Source of the DNA: a virus
Reading direction: 5' to 3' (one strand)
Virus record (IMG/VR): IMGVR_UViG_3300021474_000017
Location: 1 to 37,201 of that record
Length of the DNA stretch: 37,201 nucleotides
Every line of letters begins with the position of its first letter. Position 1 is the first letter of the stretch. The notes under the pieces were generated by a model that was not told where the DNA came from, made no database searches, and saw only the letters and a program-made list of their open reading frames with translations. Position numbers and translations under genes: made by a program. Below are positions 8,556-26,591 of this stretch, piece by piece.

Positions 8556-8608
8556 CGTATCGAGCCATCAGCGAGTTGCGCAAAAAAGTGGAGCGCGAGC
8601 GCCCATGA
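8552..8608 (+). CDS. Micro-ORF, 18 aa, coupled to the TnpB-like gene
   Basis: Eighteen codons fill the space between two ATGA overlaps, the second with the TnpB-like start. The peptide is basic and helical. Its likely value is translational coupling; a separate function cannot be argued. Confidence 0.35.
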   Translation: MTYRAISELRKKVERERP

Positions 8609-9783
8609 GAGTAGATAATACGCTCATGCCGCTCTCGTTTACGCGTACCCTGAAGTTGAAGGTCCGTTCTGAGTCCTATGCGTGGCTCAATGCTGCTGCG
8701 ATTGAAGTCAACCAAGTTTGGAATTGGGCAAATGAGGTGAGCGCCAAGGCAGCGCAGCCTTTTGTAGGACCCCGGGAATGGTTGAGTGGATTTGATCTCA
8801 ACAACCTGAGTGCTGGCGCCACAGAACACTTTGTGCGTATTGGCGCAGACACTATTCAGCGCATCAACGGTGAATATGCGCAGAAGCGCAAACAGGCAAA
8901 GCGCACTCAACTGCATTGGCGCGTAAGCCGTGGATCGAGACGGTCGTTAGGTTGGATACCGTTTAAGACAAAGAGTCTCAAGCGCAAAGGAAATGCGCTG
9001 CGTTTCGCCGGCAAGACTTTTCGAGTGTTCGAGTCCGATCGACTCGAAGGGGCAAAGTGGCAGCAAGGCTGCTTTGCGCAGGACGCCATGGGGGATTGGT
9101 GGCTATGCCTGCCGATCATCGAAACGGCCGAGATAACAATCGCGCCAAATGAGTCTGTCGGCATTGACCTGGGCCTAAAAGATATCGCCGTTACTAGTGA
9201 CGGCGAGCGATTGGAAGCCGGCAAGTGGACTCATCGCTATGCTGAGCGACTTGCCAACGCTCAGCGTCGCGGTCATCGGCGCCAGGCGAAGCGGTTTCAC
9301 CGCAAAGCAGCGCGCTGTCGTGCCGATGCCCTGCATAAGTTCTCAAGAGCGATTATTGATAGTTATCAGAAAATTATTATTGGCGATGTGAGTAGTTCCA
9401 AGCTAGCCAAAACCAAGATGGCGAAATCCGTTTTGGATTCCGGTTGGGGGATGCTCAAAACACAACTGCAGTATAAAGGCGAGCACGCCGGCAGGTTTGT
9501 GGAAATCGTCAGCGAGAGATTCACAACGCGAGTCTGTGGAAACTGCGGAGGCCTTTCCGGCCCGGCGGGAATAGGACAACTCGTTGTAAGGCACTGGGAA
9601 TGCTCGGAGTGTGGTACCGAGCACGATCGCGACGTGAATGCCGCGAGGAACATTCTCAGAACCGGGCTCAGGTGTCGAGCCTCCGTATGCGGGAACGAGT
9701 CTTCGGACTTATCGATTCCATCGAGCAGGCTACGCAAGCGCCGTCGCGAGATAGGAGCAGAATCGGTGAGGTCGGCGACATGA
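8605..9783 (+). CDS. TnpB-like RuvC-family (IS200/IS605 OrfB) protein, 392 aa
   Basis: Members of this family are RNA-guided DNA nucleases and the ancestors of Cas12. Here an N-terminal wedge-like region leads to RuvC-I GIDLGLKD (about 186-193), RuvC-II IIIGDVSSSKL (about 258-268), a zinc finger with CGNCG and CSECG (about 311-337), and RuvC-III HDRDVNAARN (about 341-350). Both outer catalytic Asp are present. The usual Glu of RuvC-II (IEDL in classic TnpB) is Gly here, with the next Asp kept, as in a subgroup I recall. No tnpA or transposon ends are visible, and both ends overlap neighbouring genes, so it looks like a resident phage gene. ATG 8626 is an alternative start. Catalytic activity is uncertain. 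Confidence 0.85.
   Translation: MRVDNTLMPLSFTRTLKLKVRSESYAWLNAAAIEVNQVWNWANEVSAKAAQPFVGPREWLSGFDLNNLSAGATEHFVRIGADTIQRINGEYAQKRKQAKRTQLHWRVSRGSRRSLGWIPFKTKSLKRKGNALRFAGKTFRVFESDRLEGAKWQQGCFAQDAMGDWWLCLPIIETAEITIAPNESVGIDLGLKDIAVTSDGERLEAGKWTHRYAERLANAQRRGHRRQAKRFHRKAARCRADALHKFSRAIIDSYQKIIIGDVSSSKLAKTKMAKSVLDSGWGMLKTQLQYKGEHAGRFVEIVSERFTTRVCGNCGGLSGPAGIGQLVVRHWECSECGTEHDRDVNAARNILRTGLRCRASVCGNESSDLSIPSSRLRKRRREIGAESVRSAT
9660..9715 (+). ncRNA. Candidate omega-RNA-like 3' structure in the TnpB-like gene
   Basis: TnpB guide RNAs usually arise from the 3' end of the gene. Three consecutive hairpins lie here: GGCTC/GAGCC (9665-9681), CCG-TATG-CGG (9683-9692) and AGTC-TTCG-GACT (9698-9709), the last with a UUCG tetraloop. 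The structures are visible; their role as a guide scaffold is inference. A guide would lie further downstream, inside or past the next gene start. Confidence 0.3.
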
Positions 9784-11590: not shown

Positions 11591-11775
11591 TTTTACAGGA
11601 CGCGACGCGCGACAAAATTCATCAGATCAACGACGATTTTGTTGAGCTTCTTGGCGTGAAGGCGGAAATAGTGAATTCTGGATCGGCGCCTGATGCTGGC
11701 GATGGCGATACACTACGGATGGCTTTAGACAAGATTCATCACAATTTATTGTTGCTGAAGAAGACTGAAAAGTGA
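11587..11775 (+). CDS. Small helical hypothetical protein, 62 aa
   Basis: GTG 11587 overlaps the DUF2158 stop, and its own stop overlaps the co-chaperonin start. Two helices flank a Gly/Asp-rich linker (SGSAPDAGDGD). Not recognised. Its position gives translational coupling to the co-chaperonin. Confidence 0.5.
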   Translation: MILQDATRDKIHQINDDFVELLGVKAEIVNSGSAPDAGDGDTLRMALDKIHHNLLLLKKTEK

Positions 11776-12578
11776 ACCAACCCCTCATCGATCGCGGCGT
11801 CCGCGTGTCCAACGCCCTGTTAACCTTTGTCCGCGAAGACGAAACCATCCGCTGTCTGCGCGATCATATCGTCGTTGAGCCGCTGGATATCGATCATGGG
11901 ACGATGATGGAGCTGGTTTATCGGGGTCAGCCAGTTCGCGGGAAAGTATTGGCTGTCGGGCCCGGTCATTTCCAGAAGCGATATGACGGGCCGAAAGGCA
12001 AGCGCACGAAGTCGTGGGACTCAAAACACTTCACCCCGTGTGATATTCAGCCCGGTGATGTCGTCGATCTTGGCGGCCTCGAATTAAACGGATATTTGTT
12101 CACTCGTGTGCTCTGGGGCGGCAAAGACGTAATCATTTCGACACGTGAAGCCGATGTGGCGATTGTATTCGATGCCGAAACTGGCGAGAGTCGCCCCCTA
12201 CACGATCGCGTGATTGTGAGGCGCTTGGAACGCGAGACCGTTTCGCGCGGTGGCATCCAGATTGTAGATACGGAGCGCGAGCCTTATTTGCGTGGCGAGA
12301 TCATTGCAATCGGTCCCGGCAAGCTTCTCGAAAGCGGCGCAGTCGTTCCGCTCGATGTGAAAGCCGGAGATCGCATCTGGTTCAGTCTCGGTACTCAGAT
12401 TCAGATAGACGGCGAGGAATTGTTGGTGATGCGTGAGGAAGATATTGTTGCGGTATTGGAAGAGTCCCCACTGTGGCTCACAGCTGAAAACAGCGAAGAG
12501 ACTTGGACCGATAGAAGGGTTGAACGGCATGAAATGCTATCAAATGATCTGATCGGCATGGTGATACGCGCGAAATGA
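11772..12578 (+). CDS. Tandem GroES/Cpn10-like co-chaperonin, 268 aa
   Basis: Two co-chaperonin domains are fused. The second (about 139-228) is a textbook Cpn10: RPLHDRVIVRRLE, a mobile-loop-like GGIQI, RGEIIAIGPG, VKAGDRIWF and a closing REEDIVAVLEE. The first (about 27-130) is divergent but keeps LRDHIVVEPL, RGKVLAVGPG and IQPGDVVDLGG; its mobile-loop region lacks the GGI-hydrophobic tripeptide. A third tail (about 229-268) is unassigned. Phage co-chaperonins such as T4 gp31 replace GroES so that host GroEL can fold the coat protein; those are single-domain and about 110 aa. A fused pair recalls chloroplast Cpn20. GTG 11772 overlaps the previous stop. It probably serves coat or tailspike folding. 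Confidence 0.85.
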   Translation: MNQPLIDRGVRVSNALLTFVREDETIRCLRDHIVVEPLDIDHGTMMELVYRGQPVRGKVLAVGPGHFQKRYDGPKGKRTKSWDSKHFTPCDIQPGDVVDLGGLELNGYLFTRVLWGGKDVIISTREADVAIVFDAETGESRPLHDRVIVRRLERETVSRGGIQIVDTEREPYLRGEIIAIGPGKLLESGAVVPLDVKAGDRIWFSLGTQIQIDGEELLVMREEDIVAVLEESPLWLTAENSEETWTDRRVERHEMLSNDLIGMVIRAK

Positions 12579-18920: not shown

Positions 18921-21900
18921 TTGCCCGTAATTCCGTCAGGCTCTCACCAGCCTGCAACCAGCAACGACGAAATTTTCCAGGAAGCCTCCGAACGCCTGCG
19001 CATCGCAGAACAGTCCGAAGGCGCGAACCGCCAGGCCGCGGTCATCGATCTCGAGTTCGAAGACGGCCAGCAATGGCCCACGGACATCTACAATCAGCGC
19101 AAGGTCTCCCGACGCCCGACGCTGACCATCAATCACACGCGTGCGATGGTCAAGCGCGTCGTGAACAACATGCGCATGCAGCGTCCGCGCATCAAAGTCC
19201 ATCCGGTCGGTGATGGCGCGGATGTCGATCTTGCGCAGAAAATCGGCGGACTGATCCGGCACATCGAGCAACGCTCGGAAGGGGCGACGGCTTACGACAT
19301 CGGTGGTGAGTCCGCCGTCAAGATGGGCTGGGGTTACTGGCGCATTCTGTCGGAGTACATCGCGGAGGATAGCTTTGAGCAGGAATTGAAGATTGCGCCG
19401 ATCCGCAATCCGTTCACGGTCTACATGGACCCCGGCTCTATTTTGCCGGCGGGTGAGGATGCTGAGTGGTGTTTGATCACCGAGACCATGAAGCGGTCGG
19501 AATTTGAGCGGAAGTATCCCGAGGAAGCTGAAACCGAATGGCGTGATGGTGGCCAAGGCGATATGAGCCTTGAATGGCGCACGAAAGAGGAAATCCGGCT
19601 CGCGGAATATTTCCGCATCGTCAAGAAGAAAGACACGCTAGTCAAACTCACTTCTGGCGAGTCCGTTTATCTGAGTCAGATGAAGGAAGGGCAGCAGATC
19701 GCGAAGAATCTTCGTGGCGATGAGATTCGCCGCCCCGCGTATCGGCGCCAATTGGAATGGCATCGATTGAACGGGTCGACGGTTGTTGAATCAGTTGATC
19801 TGCCGGGGAAGTGGATTCCAGTCGTGCGTTGCGAAGGCAACGTGATGGATCTGAATGGGCAGATCCGGCGCAAGGGGATGGTGCGGGATTTGATTGATGT
19901 TGCTCGCATGGTGAATTACTGGCGTCATCTGTCATTGGATACACCATTGCCGACGCCAACCGGCTGGACCACGATGGGCGAAGTCAAGTCCGGCGACATG
20001 TTGTTCAATGAGCATGGCAAACCGTGCAAAGTACTCGGTAAAAGTCCGATCTACGTCCACAAGGATTGCTATCGCATCACATTCGACGACGGTAGCCAAG
20101 TAATAGCTAGTGGTGAACATGAATGGCCAGTAGAGCAGCGTGGACCCCGCAATGCTCATAGTTTTGAATGGCTAAGGAAGTCCGTTCTAACAAAGGATCT
20201 ACAACCGCGAAAGGATTACATTTATGTCACAGCACCGCTTGATTTGCCAAAGATCGATTTGCCGTTAGATCCATATCTATTAGGCGTCTGGTTGGGAAAT
20301 GGAACAGCAGTTTCCACAAGCATCTGCCACGGAAAAGATGATGTTGAAGAGATGCGAAAACATTTATCAGACTGTGGATATTCTGTTGGCCCATGCCATA
20401 AGCAAAAAGATGAGACAAAAGCCCCGACTTTCTCCGTCTATGGAATTCGTCAAATACTGATCGAAGAAGGCTTGCTAGGTCGCAAGCACATTCCTCAGAA
20501 ATATTTGAGAGCATCGCATGAGCAACGATTAGCTTTGATTCAGGGTTTAATGGATACTGATGGATCAGTGTCGGCTGCAGGTCAATGCAGTTTCACAAAT
20601 ATAAATCTACAAATTGTACAAGGACTCGCTGAATTACTTCGTTCCATTGGCATAAAAGCTATAGTCATTAAGCGCGCAGCGCGACTTTGCGAAATGCCTG
20701 GTGGCTATCAATCGAAATGTTCCGAGTCATATCAATTTTCCTTCACCACACGAAAACCGATATTTCGTATGGCCAGAAAGCTTGCAGGACTTGGTAAACG
20801 GCCAGAACAGATTCGGCGCACGCATCGACATCGCATCGACAAAGTCGAACGTATCGCATCGGTGCCAGTGCAATGTTTAGCTATCGATTCACCATCGCAT
20901 CTATTCCTATGTGGCGAGGCGATGATTCCTACTCACAATACCTGCGAAACAGAGGTAATCGCCCTTGCTCCGCGTGCTCCATGGGTGGGAACCACAAATC
21001 ATTTCGATGGTCACCCGGAATGGAATGATGCCAATCAAGTTCCCTATTCGAAGCTGACTTATACACCCGATTTTATCGAGCAACCTGATGGCAGTAAAAC
21101 GCCATTGCCACCGCCGCAGCGTGTTGAGCCGGTGGCCGTTCCAGCGGGCTTTGTGCAGGCTGCAGAGTCCGCCCTTAAGGATCTGATGATACTAGCCGGC
21201 ATGCCGCACGAGCCCGGTCAGGACGCGCCTGGTCAGGTCGTTTCCGGTAAAGCCTTACGTGCTCGCCAAGCGTTGAGTGACATCGGCCACTTCCAGTACT
21301 ACGACAATCAAACCAAGTCGATCTGCCATACCGGCCGCATCATTCTCGACCTGATTCCGTACTACTACAGCGAAGCACGCATGCAGCGCATCATCGGCGA
21401 GGATGGCGTGCCGGAAGTGGTCGGCATTAATCAGCCGCAAGATCCGAATGAAGGCGGCGCAGGCGCAGAATTGCCGCTGCTCGGACAGCCTCCGATAGAT
21501 CCTGCGGTCGCGAAGATCAAGAACGACCTCACAGTGGGCCGTTACGATGTCGTGATGGATACCGGCCCCGGTTTTGAGACCAAGCGCATGGAGGCGGTCG
21601 ATTCCATGTTGGATCTCATGCGGACACCATTGGGCGAGCCGGTCGTTAAAGTCGGCGCCGATCTCGTGGTGCGCAACATGGACTGGCCCGGTGCATCAGA
21701 CCTGGCCGATCGCCTCGCGCCACTCACCCCGCAGGGTCTCGACAAGGCCATCAAATCGCTGCCGAAACAGGCGCAGGGTATCGTCACGGCCATGCAGCAG
21801 CAGTTGCAACAGGCGCAACAGGAAATCCAAGGTCTGCAGCAAGAATTGAAGCTGAAGACCAATATTGAGAATAACTGGATCGCCTTGGAGAAGTATAAGG

Positions 21901-22118
21901 TCGATCAGCAGACACAGGTCAAGGCGAATGATGCGGCATTGAAGGCGCATACGAGCGCGATGGACACGCACACCAAAGCGCAAGCCTCCATCGCAGTGGC
22001 TGAGATCGGCGCGACGGGCAAGATCATTGATTCGCACGTGCAGGGCGGCCATGCGAAAGAGGCGGCTGAAGTCGCCGCAGAACATGCGGCCGAGAAGGCT
22101 GAGAAGGCCGAAAAATGA
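18921..22118 (+). CDS. Portal protein (P22-like) interrupted by an intein, 1065 aa precursor
   Basis: The portal is the dodecameric ring through which DNA enters and leaves the head. The extein parts (1-335 and 674-1065) join to 727 residues, close to the 725 of P22 gp1, and match P22-like portals: FEDGQQWP, TLTINHTRAMVKRVVNNMR and a junction NYWR+TCETEVIALAPRAPW. A C-terminal coiled coil (MQQQLQQAQQEIQGLQQELK) corresponds to the P22 barrel. Residues 336-673 are an intein (separate entry) sitting in a conserved part of the clip/stem region. TTG 18921 is the only plausible start, with a weak GAG upstream. It works with terminase and the gp4-like factor. Confidence 0.9.
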   Translation: MPVIPSGSHQPATSNDEIFQEASERLRIAEQSEGANRQAAVIDLEFEDGQQWPTDIYNQRKVSRRPTLTINHTRAMVKRVVNNMRMQRPRIKVHPVGDGADVDLAQKIGGLIRHIEQRSEGATAYDIGGESAVKMGWGYWRILSEYIAEDSFEQELKIAPIRNPFTVYMDPGSILPAGEDAEWCLITETMKRSEFERKYPEEAETEWRDGGQGDMSLEWRTKEEIRLAEYFRIVKKKDTLVKLTSGESVYLSQMKEGQQIAKNLRGDEIRRPAYRRQLEWHRLNGSTVVESVDLPGKWIPVVRCEGNVMDLNGQIRRKGMVRDLIDVARMVNYWRHLSLDTPLPTPTGWTTMGEVKSGDMLFNEHGKPCKVLGKSPIYVHKDCYRITFDDGSQVIASGEHEWPVEQRGPRNAHSFEWLRKSVLTKDLQPRKDYIYVTAPLDLPKIDLPLDPYLLGVWLGNGTAVSTSICHGKDDVEEMRKHLSDCGYSVGPCHKQKDETKAPTFSVYGIRQILIEEGLLGRKHIPQKYLRASHEQRLALIQGLMDTDGSVSAAGQCSFTNINLQIVQGLAELLRSIGIKAIVIKRAARLCEMPGGYQSKCSESYQFSFTTRKPIFRMARKLAGLGKRPEQIRRTHRHRIDKVERIASVPVQCLAIDSPSHLFLCGEAMIPTHNTCETEVIALAPRAPWVGTTNHFDGHPEWNDANQVPYSKLTYTPDFIEQPDGSKTPLPPPQRVEPVAVPAGFVQAAESALKDLMILAGMPHEPGQDAPGQVVSGKALRARQALSDIGHFQYYDNQTKSICHTGRIILDLIPYYYSEARMQRIIGEDGVPEVVGINQPQDPNEGGAGAELPLLGQPPIDPAVAKIKNDLTVGRYDVVMDTGPGFETKRMEAVDSMLDLMRTPLGEPVVKVGADLVVRNMDWPGASDLADRLAPLTPQGLDKAIKSLPKQAQGIVTAMQQQLQQAQQEIQGLQQELKLKTNIENNWIALEKYKVDQQTQVKANDAALKAHTSAMDTHTKAQASIAVAEIGATGKIIDSHVQGGHAKEAAEVAAEHAAEKAEKAEK
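19926..20939 (+). mobile_element. Class 3-type intein with LAGLIDADG endonuclease, 338 aa
   Basis: The block starting HLSLDTPLPTPTGWTTM aligns with intein block A, and the end, MIPTHN followed by Thr, is block G plus the +1 residue. Position 1 is His, not Cys or Ser. Instead Trp402 two residues after the block B His400 (GEHEW), Cys652 in block F (VQCLAID) and Thr671 before the final His-Asn form the Trp-Cys-Thr triad of class 3 inteins, in which the block F Cys starts splicing. A LAGLIDADG endonuclease is inserted: motif 1 LLGVWLGNG (453-461) has Asn in place of the catalytic Asp; motif 2 LIQGLMDTDG (539-548) is intact. Splicing should be active; DNA cutting may be reduced or lost. Confidence 0.9.
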
Positions 22119-24075: not shown

Positions 24076-24091
24076 AGGAGCAGCGACTATT
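24076..24091 (+). promoter_or_regulatory. Ribosome site AGGAG and ATT initiation codon of the coat gene
   Basis: AGGAG at 24076-24080 stands 8 nt before ATT 24089-24091. The frame is closed upstream by TGA 24062-24064, and no ATG, GTG or in-frame TTG lies between that stop and the ATT. The first in-frame TTG (24104) is 23 nt past the ribosome site. The CATTTAGGAG context is identical to that of the gene at 26679. Confidence 0.6.
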
Positions 24092-25707
24092 GTCCAGCAA
24101 CTTTTGACGATTTCTTACATTACTAACGAGGCGTTGGTAGTGTTGGAAAATGAACTCGTCATCGCTAACCGCGTTGACCGTCAGTAAAATTGAATGCTGA
24201 CGCAAAACCCATCTAACTGCTGGAAACTCTTTATAGCCTGAAGTACCGAAAGGTAACAATCTTCAGGATTAGACAATCAGCAACGAAGCCGTCATAAGAC
24301 GGAACGCTCAACGATCATTCCGAAAGGAAGTAGAGCCAACGGGCTCGAAACGGTGGGGCTTCGAAAGAAGCAAGATATGATCTGATCTCTGATGAGAATC
24401 AGAGCGATCGAAAGATCGGACCAACTTGAGTTGGTCTAACATTTGATTCAAACGAGTTCGCACAGACCGGCGCCAAGATAGGCAACACAGTTAACGTCCG
24501 GCGTCCGCCCCGCTACATCGGTACATACGGCCCCCCTCTGAACGTGGAAGACACGTTCGAGCAGTACGTCCCGGTGGTGCTCAACTACCAGTTCCACGTC
24601 GATGTGCAGTTCACGACGCAGGACCTGGCGCTGTCCATGGATATGTTCAAACAGCGCATTCTGAAACCTCAGGTCGCAACCGTCGCGAACCGGGTTGACT
24701 CCGACACTGCACAGTTCTGCACGCTCAACACGGCGAATTCCTTGGGCACCGCGGGCATCCAGCCTGCGAGCTACAAGATTTTCTCCGATGCGCGCGCGGT
24801 GCTGGCGTCCGAGGCCTGCCCGGCCGAAGGCGAGAAGAACTGCGTGCTGGATCCCATCAGCATGTCAGCGGCAACGGATGCCATCAAGGGTCTGTTCAAT
24901 CCTCAGGCGCGCATCAGCGAGTTCAACGAGCGCGGCATGGTGGCGAAGGAGTTCGCCGGATTGGACTGGTGGGAGGATCAGAACATCATGTCGTTCACGA
25001 CCGGTGCTCAGGGCGGTACGCCCACGGTCTCGGCGACACCGACCGGTACGGCGCTGCTCACGAGCGGATGGTCGGCGAACGGCACGATCCTGACGACAGG
25101 TTGGACGGCTTCGACCGGTGTGATCAAGGTCGGTGATGTGATCCAGTTCTCAGGTATCTATCCGGTAAACCCGCAGAGCCGTCAGCAGTATGGACGCACG
25201 CTGAAACAATTCGTGGTACTACCGCCCGGTGGCTTTATCACGCCGCCTAACGGTGCCGCGACGACGGGCATCTACTACGGGCCGGCGAGTTTGACGAACG
25301 GTACGTTCAACCCGCTGACTGGGGTGTACACCAGTGACAGCTCGGGCAATCTGCAGCTCACGATTGGCGACGCGATCATCAGCGCCGGCCAGTTCCAGAA
25401 CTGCACGGCGGCGCCGACTGGCACCGGTACGACCATCACGGTCAACGGTGGAACGGCGTACGCCAGCACGGCGACTCCGCAGGGGTTGGTGTTCCACAAG
25501 TACGCGTTTGCGTTGGCCTTCGCGGATCTGCCACTGCCCCGGGGCGTGGAGTTCGCGGCGCGGGCTTATGACGACGAGGATGTGGGGATGTCGATTCGGA
25601 TGGTGACGCAATTCACTATCAATAACGACTCAGAGCCTACACGCTGTGATGTTCTCTACGGCCCTGCTTCTTTATACAGGTCCTTAGCGATCCGGGTGTT
25701 TGGATGA
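24089..25707 (+). CDS. Major capsid protein, P22 coat family, split by a group I intron (join 24089-24185, 24446-25707)
   Basis: The shell protein of the head, 452 aa once spliced. Exon 1 encodes QLLTISYITNEALVVLENEL followed by VIANRVDRQ, and exon 2 continues YSNEFAQTGAKIG, the conserved N-terminal arm and first domain of P22-type coats. Exon 2 then has VRRPPRYIGTYG, VQFTTQDLALSMDMFKQRIL and other shared blocks. Residues about 190-340 are Gly/Thr-rich and probably form the inserted I-domain-like part. Joining at T24185/A24446 makes a TAT codon and keeps frame. The apparent start is ATT 24089. An intact frame from GTG 24544 exists but would lose about 130 residues. Confidence 0.93.
24186..24445 (+). 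ncRNA. Self-splicing group I intron (IA-like), 260 nt, no ORF
   Basis: All core elements can be paired by eye. P1: exon CGTCAGT (24179-24185) with guide GCTGACG (24196-24202), with the required U-G pair at the splice site. P10: TTGAAT (24190-24195) with exon 2 ATTCAA (24446-24451). P3: CCCATC/GGTGGG (24208, 24352). P4: TGCTG/CAGCA (24218, 24278). P5: CCTGAAG/CTTCAGG (24237, 24261). P6: CCGTC/GACGG (24289, 24298). P7: GATCAT/ATGATC (24313, 24377). P8: GCTTC/GAAGC (24358, 24367). P9 to P9.2: stems at 24387-24436. Two extra stems between P7 and P3 (24319-24328, 24333-24346) point to subgroup IA, common in phages. Several loops are GAAA. The last nucleotide is G24445. Confidence 0.93.
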
Positions 25708-25739: not shown

Positions 25740-26591
25740 ATGCATTGCATTCGTCCAAGGTTTTCGGCAAAATGTCTCGGTCTTAATAACCGAGAACGAA
25801 ATGTGGAAACCGTAAGCGTGTGTCAATGCAAAGGGTGCGACCTCCCTGTGAAGGCTTCTGGCTTATGCAGTGAGCATTTGCGGCGAGCTAGGAAATCTGG
25901 CTCGCCGTTTGAACCTAAAATGAATGCTGCGATGTTCAGAGGCAGGAGTGCCATCGAACGATTCGAAGCACAGCATAAAAAGACAGAGGGCTGTTGGTTA
26001 TGGACCTACTGCGTGGACCGTCAAGGGTATGGGCGTTTTGACGGAATAATTCACGGAGTGAGGTATACGAAAGCCCATCGATTTTCTTTTGCTCTACATA
26101 GTGGCAAGCCAGTGCCTCCTGACAAACTTGTCTGTCATACCTGTGACAATCCCACATGTGTCAATCCAGCGCATTTGTGGCTTGGAACTGTAGCCGACAA
26201 CCATGCAGATATGAATAGGAAAGGGCGCCGACATGATCAGTCGGGAGAGAATTCTCATCTGGCCCAACTCAATGAAGAGAAAGTTAGGAAAATTCTCTCA
26301 GATTCACGAACGTATGCTGAAATCGCGGCTGATTATGGAGTGGCTGCTACTACGATCACGAGCATCAAGAATAGAGTTTCTTGGGCTCACGTAGAAGTGA
26401 GCCACATCGCTAAAAATCCTCGCGGTGGCGCGCATAGACGTGGAATCGGAAGCAAAATCACGGAGGAAATTGTGAGAGAAATCCGTAAAAGTATCGAGCA
26501 AGGGAAGATCTTGGCTCAGAAATATGGAATCTCCAACGTTCTCGTTTCCAACATCCGCAGACGCAAAGTCTGGAAGCACGTTACCGACTGA
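25740..26591 (+). CDS. Free-standing HNH homing endonuclease, 283 aa
   Basis: An N-terminal zinc site (CQCKGC, CSEH; about 28-45) is followed by an HNH_3-type nuclease: WLWTYCVDRQGYGRF, then KAHRFSFALHSG and CHTCDNPTCVNPAHLWLGT (about 131-151), where His, Asn and His of the ββα-metal fold are visible. The C-terminal half carries two helix-turn-helix-like units (YAEIAADYGVAATTITSIKN and LAQKYGISNVLVSNIRRRK) for DNA binding. It lies 32 nt after the intron-bearing coat gene. Lower-frequency codons and a more AT-rich text than its neighbours suggest recent arrival. The start may be ATG 25740 or GTG 25803, which begins closer to the zinc site. Confidence 0.85.
   Translation: MHCIRPRFSAKCLGLNNRERNVETVSVCQCKGCDLPVKASGLCSEHLRRARKSGSPFEPKMNAAMFRGRSAIERFEAQHKKTEGCWLWTYCVDRQGYGRFDGIIHGVRYTKAHRFSFALHSGKPVPPDKLVCHTCDNPTCVNPAHLWLGTVADNHADMNRKGRRHDQSGENSHLAQLNEEKVRKILSDSRTYAEIAADYGVAATTITSIKNRVSWAHVEVSHIAKNPRGGAHRRGIGSKITEEIVREIRKSIEQGKILAQKYGISNVLVSNIRRRKVWKHVTD
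25776..25794 (+). promoter_or_regulatory. Hairpin near the HNH gene start
   Basis: CTCGGT (25776-25781) pairs with ACCGAG (25789-25794) around a 7-nt AT-rich loop. The 3' arm covers the GAG that would serve GTG 25803. Hairpins that hide the ribosome site limit expression of several T4 homing endonucleases; the same may apply here. Confidence 0.35.

Follow-up and report, generated by a model that had tools for sequence, protein, structure and literature searches.

A predicted group I intron at codon 33 of an uncultivated phage's P22-type coat gene, and its relatives at this and other sites of the gene

The stretch of DNA analyzed here, referred to as the window, is the complete 37,201-base viral record of an uncultivated bacteriophage. 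Its major capsid gene lies in two exons separated by a 260-nt insert, and a free-standing HNH endonuclease gene begins 33 nt after the second exon (Table 1). Annotated phages offered no near match to positions 13000-37201. Around the coat gene, one IMG/VR contig (L001) has only 3 differences from the window in 9,616 bases; it is treated below as a near-copy. Elsewhere, the portal ORF (18921-22118) contains a LAGLIDADG-type intein at about residues 338-673, which is absent from every coat locus with a portal match covering both sides of the junction except the near-copy. The window also carries a TnpB-like gene (8605-9783; Cas12f1-like_TNB, OrfB_IS605) and a 268-aa ORF with a GroES-like (Cpn10) domain (11772-12578). 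Xanthomonas phage PBR31, the best coat match among the annotated phage matches listed, has a co-chaperonin gene near its terminase gene too.

Table 1. Features of the coat gene region in window coordinates, and insertion sites in related coat genes
Feature	Position	Strand	Details
Probable ribosome binding site of coat gene	24076..24080	+	AGGAG, from sequence; AGGAG or a near form upstream in most relatives printed
Coat gene exon 1	24089..24185	+	97 nt; ATT in start position; codons 1-32 plus the initial base of codon 33
P1 exon strand	24179..24185	+	CGTCAGT, U.G at cut; pairs with GCTGACG, 7 bp, perfect
ORF-less group I intron	24186..24445	+	260 nt, AAA at the 5' end and G at the 3' end; core of type 1, hairpins P7.1 and P7.2 present
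Internal guide	24190..24202	+	13 nt; TTGAAT (P10, to exon 2) and GCTGACG (P1, to exon 1)
P3 5' strand	24208..24213	+	CCCATC; partner GGTGGG at 24352-24357
P4 5' strand	24218..24223	+	TGCTGG; partner TCAGCA at 24277-24282
P7 5' strand, guanosine-binding helix	24313..24317	+	GATCA; partner TGATC at 24378-24382
Coat gene exon 2	24446..25707	+	remainder of codon 33 through stop; first 6 nt ATTCAA form P10
Free-standing HNH_3 endonuclease gene, candidate mobilizer in trans	25740..26591	+	Pfam HNH_3 E 2.1e-7; PHROG HNH endonuclease families
Insertion site A	codon 33		L001, L056, L061, L063, L068
Insertion site B	after codon 45		L007, L063
Insertion site C	codon 433		L007, L063, L077

A first-pass annotation, made from the letters of the sequence, had proposed that an ORF-less group I intron splits this gene, and all of its exon and intron coordinates hold. 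The 13-nt guide that it described was found and pairs with both exons, forming P1 with the U.G pair at the cut and, immediately adjoining it, a perfect 6-bp P10 (ATTCAA/TTGAAT) over the start of exon 2. The remaining elements from P3 to P9 and the terminal G (G24445) were likewise located where they had been claimed, and P3, P7, and P9 covary among relatives. The insert contains in-frame stops and no internal endonuclease gene, and its longest ORF from an ATG is 15 aa, in keeping with the description of the intron as ORF-less.

A search with the Rfam model for group I introns (RF00028, Intron_gpI), which had been suggested as a check, gave a match of 48.8 bits (E 9e-11 in 2.5 kb searched) that covers model positions 1-253 of 253. 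When the whole window was scanned, this was the sole match up to E 0.5 (E 1.3e-9). The check came out favorably in that respect and less cleanly in two others. A scan at the gathering score of 50 reports no match in the window because the score is 1.2 bits too low, and the Rfam alignment begins inside exon 1 (24115), so P1 is misplaced by it. The gathering score is treated here as governing what a scan reports and not what a group I intron is; a blank scan at that level, read alone as a refutation, would wrongly dismiss the intron. Overall, the Rfam match, the P1 helix with its U.G pair and guide, the terminal G, and the covariation of P3 and P7 place the insert among group I introns, as judged from sequence. 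The first-pass observation is thereby confirmed and its interpretation supported.

Covariation was assessed over 34 cores of the same ribozyme type as the window intron, using the structure drawn from the window. P3 is paired in 204 of 204 cells, with five of its six pairs changing on both sides, and P7 in 170 of 170, with two of five pairs doing so. P4 is paired in 202 of 204 cells with zero changes on both sides. P9 (235/238) and P5a (199/234) are also largely paired, as are P7.1 (114/130) and P7.2 (148/166), which are both present and covarying hairpins at 88-89% pairing. P7.1 and P7.2 between P7 and P3 are a mark of subgroup IA, of which the window intron is a candidate member. P5 as drawn is paired in just 73 of 102 cells (72%), a value that rises to 92% when partners are slid by one column, and thus P5 is misdrawn for many members. 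In total, both partners vary in 28 of the 43 pairs tested, versus 8-17 with partners slid by one to three columns, a comparison that favors the drawn structure over the slid versions because it was drawn from the window.

Without splicing, the coat frame ends in VDRQ followed by a TAA stop at the first codon of the intron, which begins with AAA. Joining the exons restores an open frame of 452 residues whose product matches the Pfam family P22_CoatProtein (PF11651; E 2.5e-36, 125.8 bits), and the best-matching stretch (residues 6-290) spans the splice point. The predicted in-frame joining to a P22-type coat is thus borne out. The recommended comparison with P22-family coats agrees, in that the spliced protein aligns to intronless relatives in a single uninterrupted piece, with identity of up to 86%. 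Plain ORF calling breaks the coat gene, just as had been predicted: the caller starts exon 2 at 24544 as a GTG-started ORF of 387 aa, which matches the PHROG major head family from profile position 70 onward only. The possibility that homologues carry the same stop was also checked, and 70 of the 74 loci that can be mapped at codons 31-34 have no insert there, while the other 4 of the 74 have one. The major shell protein of this phage would, on such sequence evidence, rely on RNA splicing.

The start of the coat gene presents a further peculiarity. The start position in the window is ATT, preceded at a distance of 8 nt by the end of the AGGAG, and the first canonical in-frame start is a TTG at 24104. 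At the aligned position in 65 loci, the codon is ATG in 19, GTG in 20, TTG in 9, ATT in 4 (including the near-copy L001), ATC in 2, and some other codon in 11; given this mix, the position is not the start in every locus. The six loci with ATT or ATC (L001 included) have an AGGAG-like sequence upstream in the cases printed. Their intronless members are L003, L037, and L057 (ATT) and L004 and L047 (ATC), at least some of which contain an in-frame ATG a few codons downstream that the window lacks. A near-cognate start would be unusual for a major capsid gene.

Among the 80 nearest IMG/VR coat loci, seven (L001, L007, L056, L061, L063, L068, and L077) carry inserts read as introns, which fall at three sites designated A, B, and C (Table 1). 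The window's closest relatives come from metagenomic data. L056 and L068 share the same intron. The locus L063, which falls outside the rule for mapping at codons 31-34 and also has a site-A insert, carries introns at all three sites; its coat gene (L063:2250-4651) shows an apparent frameshift near codon 108 as well. The exact target sequence CGTCAGT is present in the four filled loci and in L063, and in 12 of the 70 loci without a site-A insert. Annotated phage records with a related coat showed no site-A insert among the matches listed (best 30 of 62; best 60 of 105).

Rfam support varies among these inserts. At E 0.1, matches were obtained for L001, L056, L068, all three introns of L063, and the site-C intron of L007, whereas the site-B insert of L007 and the inserts of L061 and L077 were not matched. 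The L063 site-B intron (69.3 bits) and the L007 site-C intron (70 bits) score above gathering, and the L063 site-C intron, which is cut by the contig end, reaches 27.9 bits. Scans of short stretches gave weak support for the L007 site-B insert (29.6 bits, E 7.5e-6 in 371 bases) and 15 bits (E 0.14) for L061. A GenBank phage genome (MW202674.1, L169; 2501-4016) has its coat annotated as two 'P22 coat protein' coding sequences and a hypothetical protein. Its insert, located after codon 87, has no Intron_gpI match up to E 10 and resembles, by shared core letters, the short ORF-less intron of the L061 and L077 kind. These three inserts, referred to as 'type 3', lack Rfam support and are therefore called group I by eye only. 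The distribution of inserts indicates that the coat gene is an intron hotspot, which different elements appear to have invaded more than once at the same spot.

Site-A introns extend well beyond close relatives of the window. A search pattern composed of the exon end, the guide (with its core GCTGAC demanded), and AAA found 88 stretches in viral contigs, and 66 of these fall at codon 33 of a P22-type coat gene. The coats of those 66 contigs range from 100% down to 27% identical to that of the window, and one of the contigs (L101) is the window's near-copy; among the other 22 matches, L147 contains exon 1 only. The frequency with which site A is filled cannot be read from this search, since a guide was a precondition for a match. 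A prophage origin was considered and rejected after the same pattern, applied to the genomes of 84,980 species, returned 84 stretches with no accompanying coat gene in any (tblastn, two coats). With even base use, approximately 80 chance matches are expected, so the cellular stretches are at chance level and serve as a control for the 66 of 88 in viral contigs.

The site-A introns are uniform at their ends and diverse in their bodies. Of 49 distinct introns, 48 have a G as their final base where the reading frame of the exons requires the intron to end; in alignment, the exception (L098) has one base more than its sister. The ends of the L063 site-A intron were set by hand. Most distinct site-A introns (44/49) exceed 400 nt, nearly all of these with an HNH ORF, and 5/49 are shorter than 400 nt. 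A motif rule applied to 55 introns of all sites assigned 42 to type 1, 10 to type 2, and 2 to type 3, with the MW202674 insert unassigned. Each of the three types is represented at site A, type 3 by a single contig. Judged by eye, the HNH ORFs lie in P8 of most type-1 introns and in P6 of type-2 introns. Tested at gathering, one of four introns of the 66 (L095, L102, L112, and L164) passes, namely L095, and there is no intron match at that level in L169, L102, L061, L077, L112, or L164. Codon 33 holds two ribozyme types, and probably a third that lacks Rfam confirmation.

Filled and empty alleles of a near-identical gene are present in the site-A family. L172 is empty and L122 holds a 734-nt intron with an HNH ORF, while their coats are 98% identical and the 256 bases before and 34 bases after the junction are the same. 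This pair fixes the insertion point of the site-A family at the DNA level. The best 80 relatives of the L122-type coat all match in a single piece, but such a list favors unbroken matches and one search pattern crosses the splice point; no frequency can be derived from the list. Identity of site-A cores correlates with identity of coats (r 0.61 over 325 pairs, from the 26 of 34 loci that have a separate row in the core alignment), which indicates partial co-inheritance. Wide transfer of site-A introns between coats is not clear-cut given this correlation.

Several marks of homing can be recognized. The coats of the window, L007, and L063 are 97-98% identical (protein, best segments), and their intron sets are {A}, {B, C}, and {A, B, C}, respectively. 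The coat DNAs of the window and L007 differ at 24 of 159 positions around A and B and at 31 of 120 around C versus 73 of 1080 elsewhere (Fisher p 7e-4 and 2e-9), with the regions set after looking at the alignment. Relative to the rest of the gene, these excesses are 2.2x and 3.8x, the most extreme among 20 pairs of 3-16% divergence, where the other pairs, all 19 without introns, reach at most 1.4x and 2.2x; intron-bearing loci other than the window and L007 were left out, as were L067 and L080. Such peaks of exon divergence near the sites are the pattern that gene conversion of exon flanks during homing would leave.

An ORF-less intron next to a free-standing endonuclease gene is the arrangement found in collaborative homing, by which the HNH enzyme would cut intronless coat alleles and carry the intron and its own gene into them together. 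This is a real possibility, with chances somewhat short of even. The HNH gene adjoins the coat gene, and its product resembles, at up to 41% identity, proteins whose genes lie within 34 of 55 related introns. Site C, which lies close to the HNH gene, is also a place around which the exons diverge more. Among 71 loci with at least 900 nt downstream, an intron is present in 3 of the 5 that have this HNH gene at 49% identity or above (near-copy L001 included) versus 3 of the other 66 (Fisher p 0.003; p 0.002 without the near-copy L068). However, L016 and L074 have the HNH gene and no intron, and the 49% cut was set after seeing the matches; counting L027 and L067, whose weaker HNH gene (34%) occupies the same position and is unaccompanied by an intron, the proportion becomes 3 of 7. 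Furthermore, the candidate enzyme might be directed solely at the gap that follows the coat gene, and HNH genes near capsid genes are common generally, according to one published account (PMC10448857). The association comprises too few loci to settle trans-homing, and the HNH gene is best regarded as a candidate.

The lineage of the window intron is revealed by its core. With the site-bound ends excluded, it shares 82% identity with both introns at site B and 75% and 71% with those at site C, whereas no other intron at site A exceeds 63%. In a tree of 34 cores, the window intron and the two B and two C introns of L007 and L063 stand alone on one side with support of 100/99, although the tree is unrooted with an arbitrary root, its bootstrap had not settled, only five members fall on the window's side, and one row was hand-trimmed. 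Since the core groups with site-B and site-C introns, the lineage is understood to have changed site. The site-A intron of L063 is of a different core type from that of the window. Reverse splicing followed by adaptation of the guide could have produced the change, as could an exchange between neighboring introns.

One version of such an exchange is that the window intron is a recombinant, formed in a phage with introns of both kinds, whose body comes from a site-B/C intron and whose ends come from an older site-A intron. L063 demonstrates that a single gene can hold site-A and site-B introns, 38 exon bases apart, and the window intron combines a B-type body with first 17 and last 8 bases nearly those of the L063 site-A intron, whose core is of another type. 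The need to pair with identical exon sequence largely fixes these end bases, though, and independent fitting after reverse splicing accounts for them as well; the recombinant origin is possible but less likely than not. A more general proposal, which is likewise tentative and on balance unlikely, is that codon 33 is a general landing site at which ribozyme bodies, guide ends, and endonuclease genes can be exchanged separately, the body in the window having moved from another site and been driven in trans by the HNH enzyme. If this were true, the same guide would have been attached to two, and probably three, bodies of unrelated origin, and endonuclease genes would come and go in different loops or lie outside the gene altogether.

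The reading preferred here is that the window very probably contains a self-splicing, phage-type group I intron at codon 33 that is a mobile passenger, has changed site, and undergoes any homing in trans. Both the sequence and the covariation among relatives speak for its helices and splice points, and from this anatomy the steps of splicing can be inferred. The guide would align the 5' site through P1 and then the 3' site through P10. Guanosine bound at P7 would attack after U24185, and the freed exon 1 would attack after G24445, joining the exons to yield a complete coat protein. An in-frame TAA can act as a guard against ribosomes entering a ribozyme. The stop observed at the start of the window intron would serve in this manner, and it would also make coat synthesis depend on splicing. 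Introns seem to come and go at three or more sites of the coat gene, and the window intron would have reached codon 33 with a re-fitted guide, a route suggested by the observed grouping of cores. Homing, if still active, would need an enzyme supplied in trans, the simplest candidate being the HNH gene behind the coat gene.

There is a very small chance that the intron is instead a dead relic that has lost splicing, leaving a truncated coat to serve the phage. An Rfam score under gathering, the GTG-started ORF within exon 2, and the ATT in the start position might all be expected of such a relic. Nevertheless, both splice helices and P3, P4, and P7 are intact, the coat frame is open across both exons, relatives retain the N-terminal region, and 70 of 74 mapped loci are continuous at codon 33; even the ATT has counterparts (ATT or ATC) in five intronless relatives, some with an in-frame ATG nearby where the window has none. 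An intein, a frameshifted gene, or an assembly error is in effect refuted, for although the same phage does carry an intein in its portal gene, this insert has in-frame stops and no ATG-started ORF of more than 15 aa, the second record L001 has the same insert (while perhaps representing the same phage from the same source), and inserts occur at the same codon in 66 contigs.

What makes the system noteworthy is that one coat codon is crowded by different ribozymes and that site has changed within one gene. Nearly the same coat occurs with none, one, two, or three introns, with empty and filled sites, and with ORF-bearing and ORF-less forms. This natural series lets intron gain, loss, site change, and trans-homing be tested directly.

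Introns in capsid genes are already known, and the window intron adds another. In literature searches with most subscription papers outside their scope, the titles and abstracts listed include no report of an intron in a P22-type coat. A 2014 review states that every phage intron observed up to then lay in a protein gene (PMC3984707). In a 184-kb viral contig (L336:10973-11718), ARAGORN reads a tRNA-Thr(TGT) with a 638-nt insert containing an ORF, 167 aa long when counted from its first ATG, together with a stretch that has the same pattern as the P5 region of the window intron; no Rfam intron is found in this insert at gathering, and another place in L336 does match.

Published accounts describe several comparable systems. 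The Cluster J mycobacteriophage LittleE has a probable group I intron in its major capsid gene, as the window does, and its splicing was demonstrated by RT-PCR and protein sequencing (PMC3706429). Unlike the window intron, it is 819 bp long, has an endonuclease ORF on the opposite strand, and interrupts an HK97-like capsid gene (PMC3706429). Phage Tuc2009 has an intron in a capsid subunit gene that is named among group I introns (PMC3706429), and it differs from the window phage in its lactococcal host. Collaborative homing is described for introns with a free-standing endonuclease gene nearby, and its pairs in T7-like phages, a cyanophage, and the ICP1 terminase gene resemble the window in having an ORF-less intron with an endonuclease gene alongside (PMC10448857, PMC3984707). 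In the window system, HNH cleavage at the intron site is a candidate activity. Within the coat gene family, the site-B and site-C introns of L007 and L063 belong to the same ribozyme lineage and the same gene as the window intron, but have other insertion points and guides, and the L063 site-C copy, up to the contig end that cuts it, holds an HNH ORF. The site-A introns of the 66 contigs share with the window intron the insertion point, the guide core (demanded by the search), and nearly always the terminal G, and differ from it in being mostly longer and equipped with an HNH ORF, with cores that lie across the tree or belong to another type.
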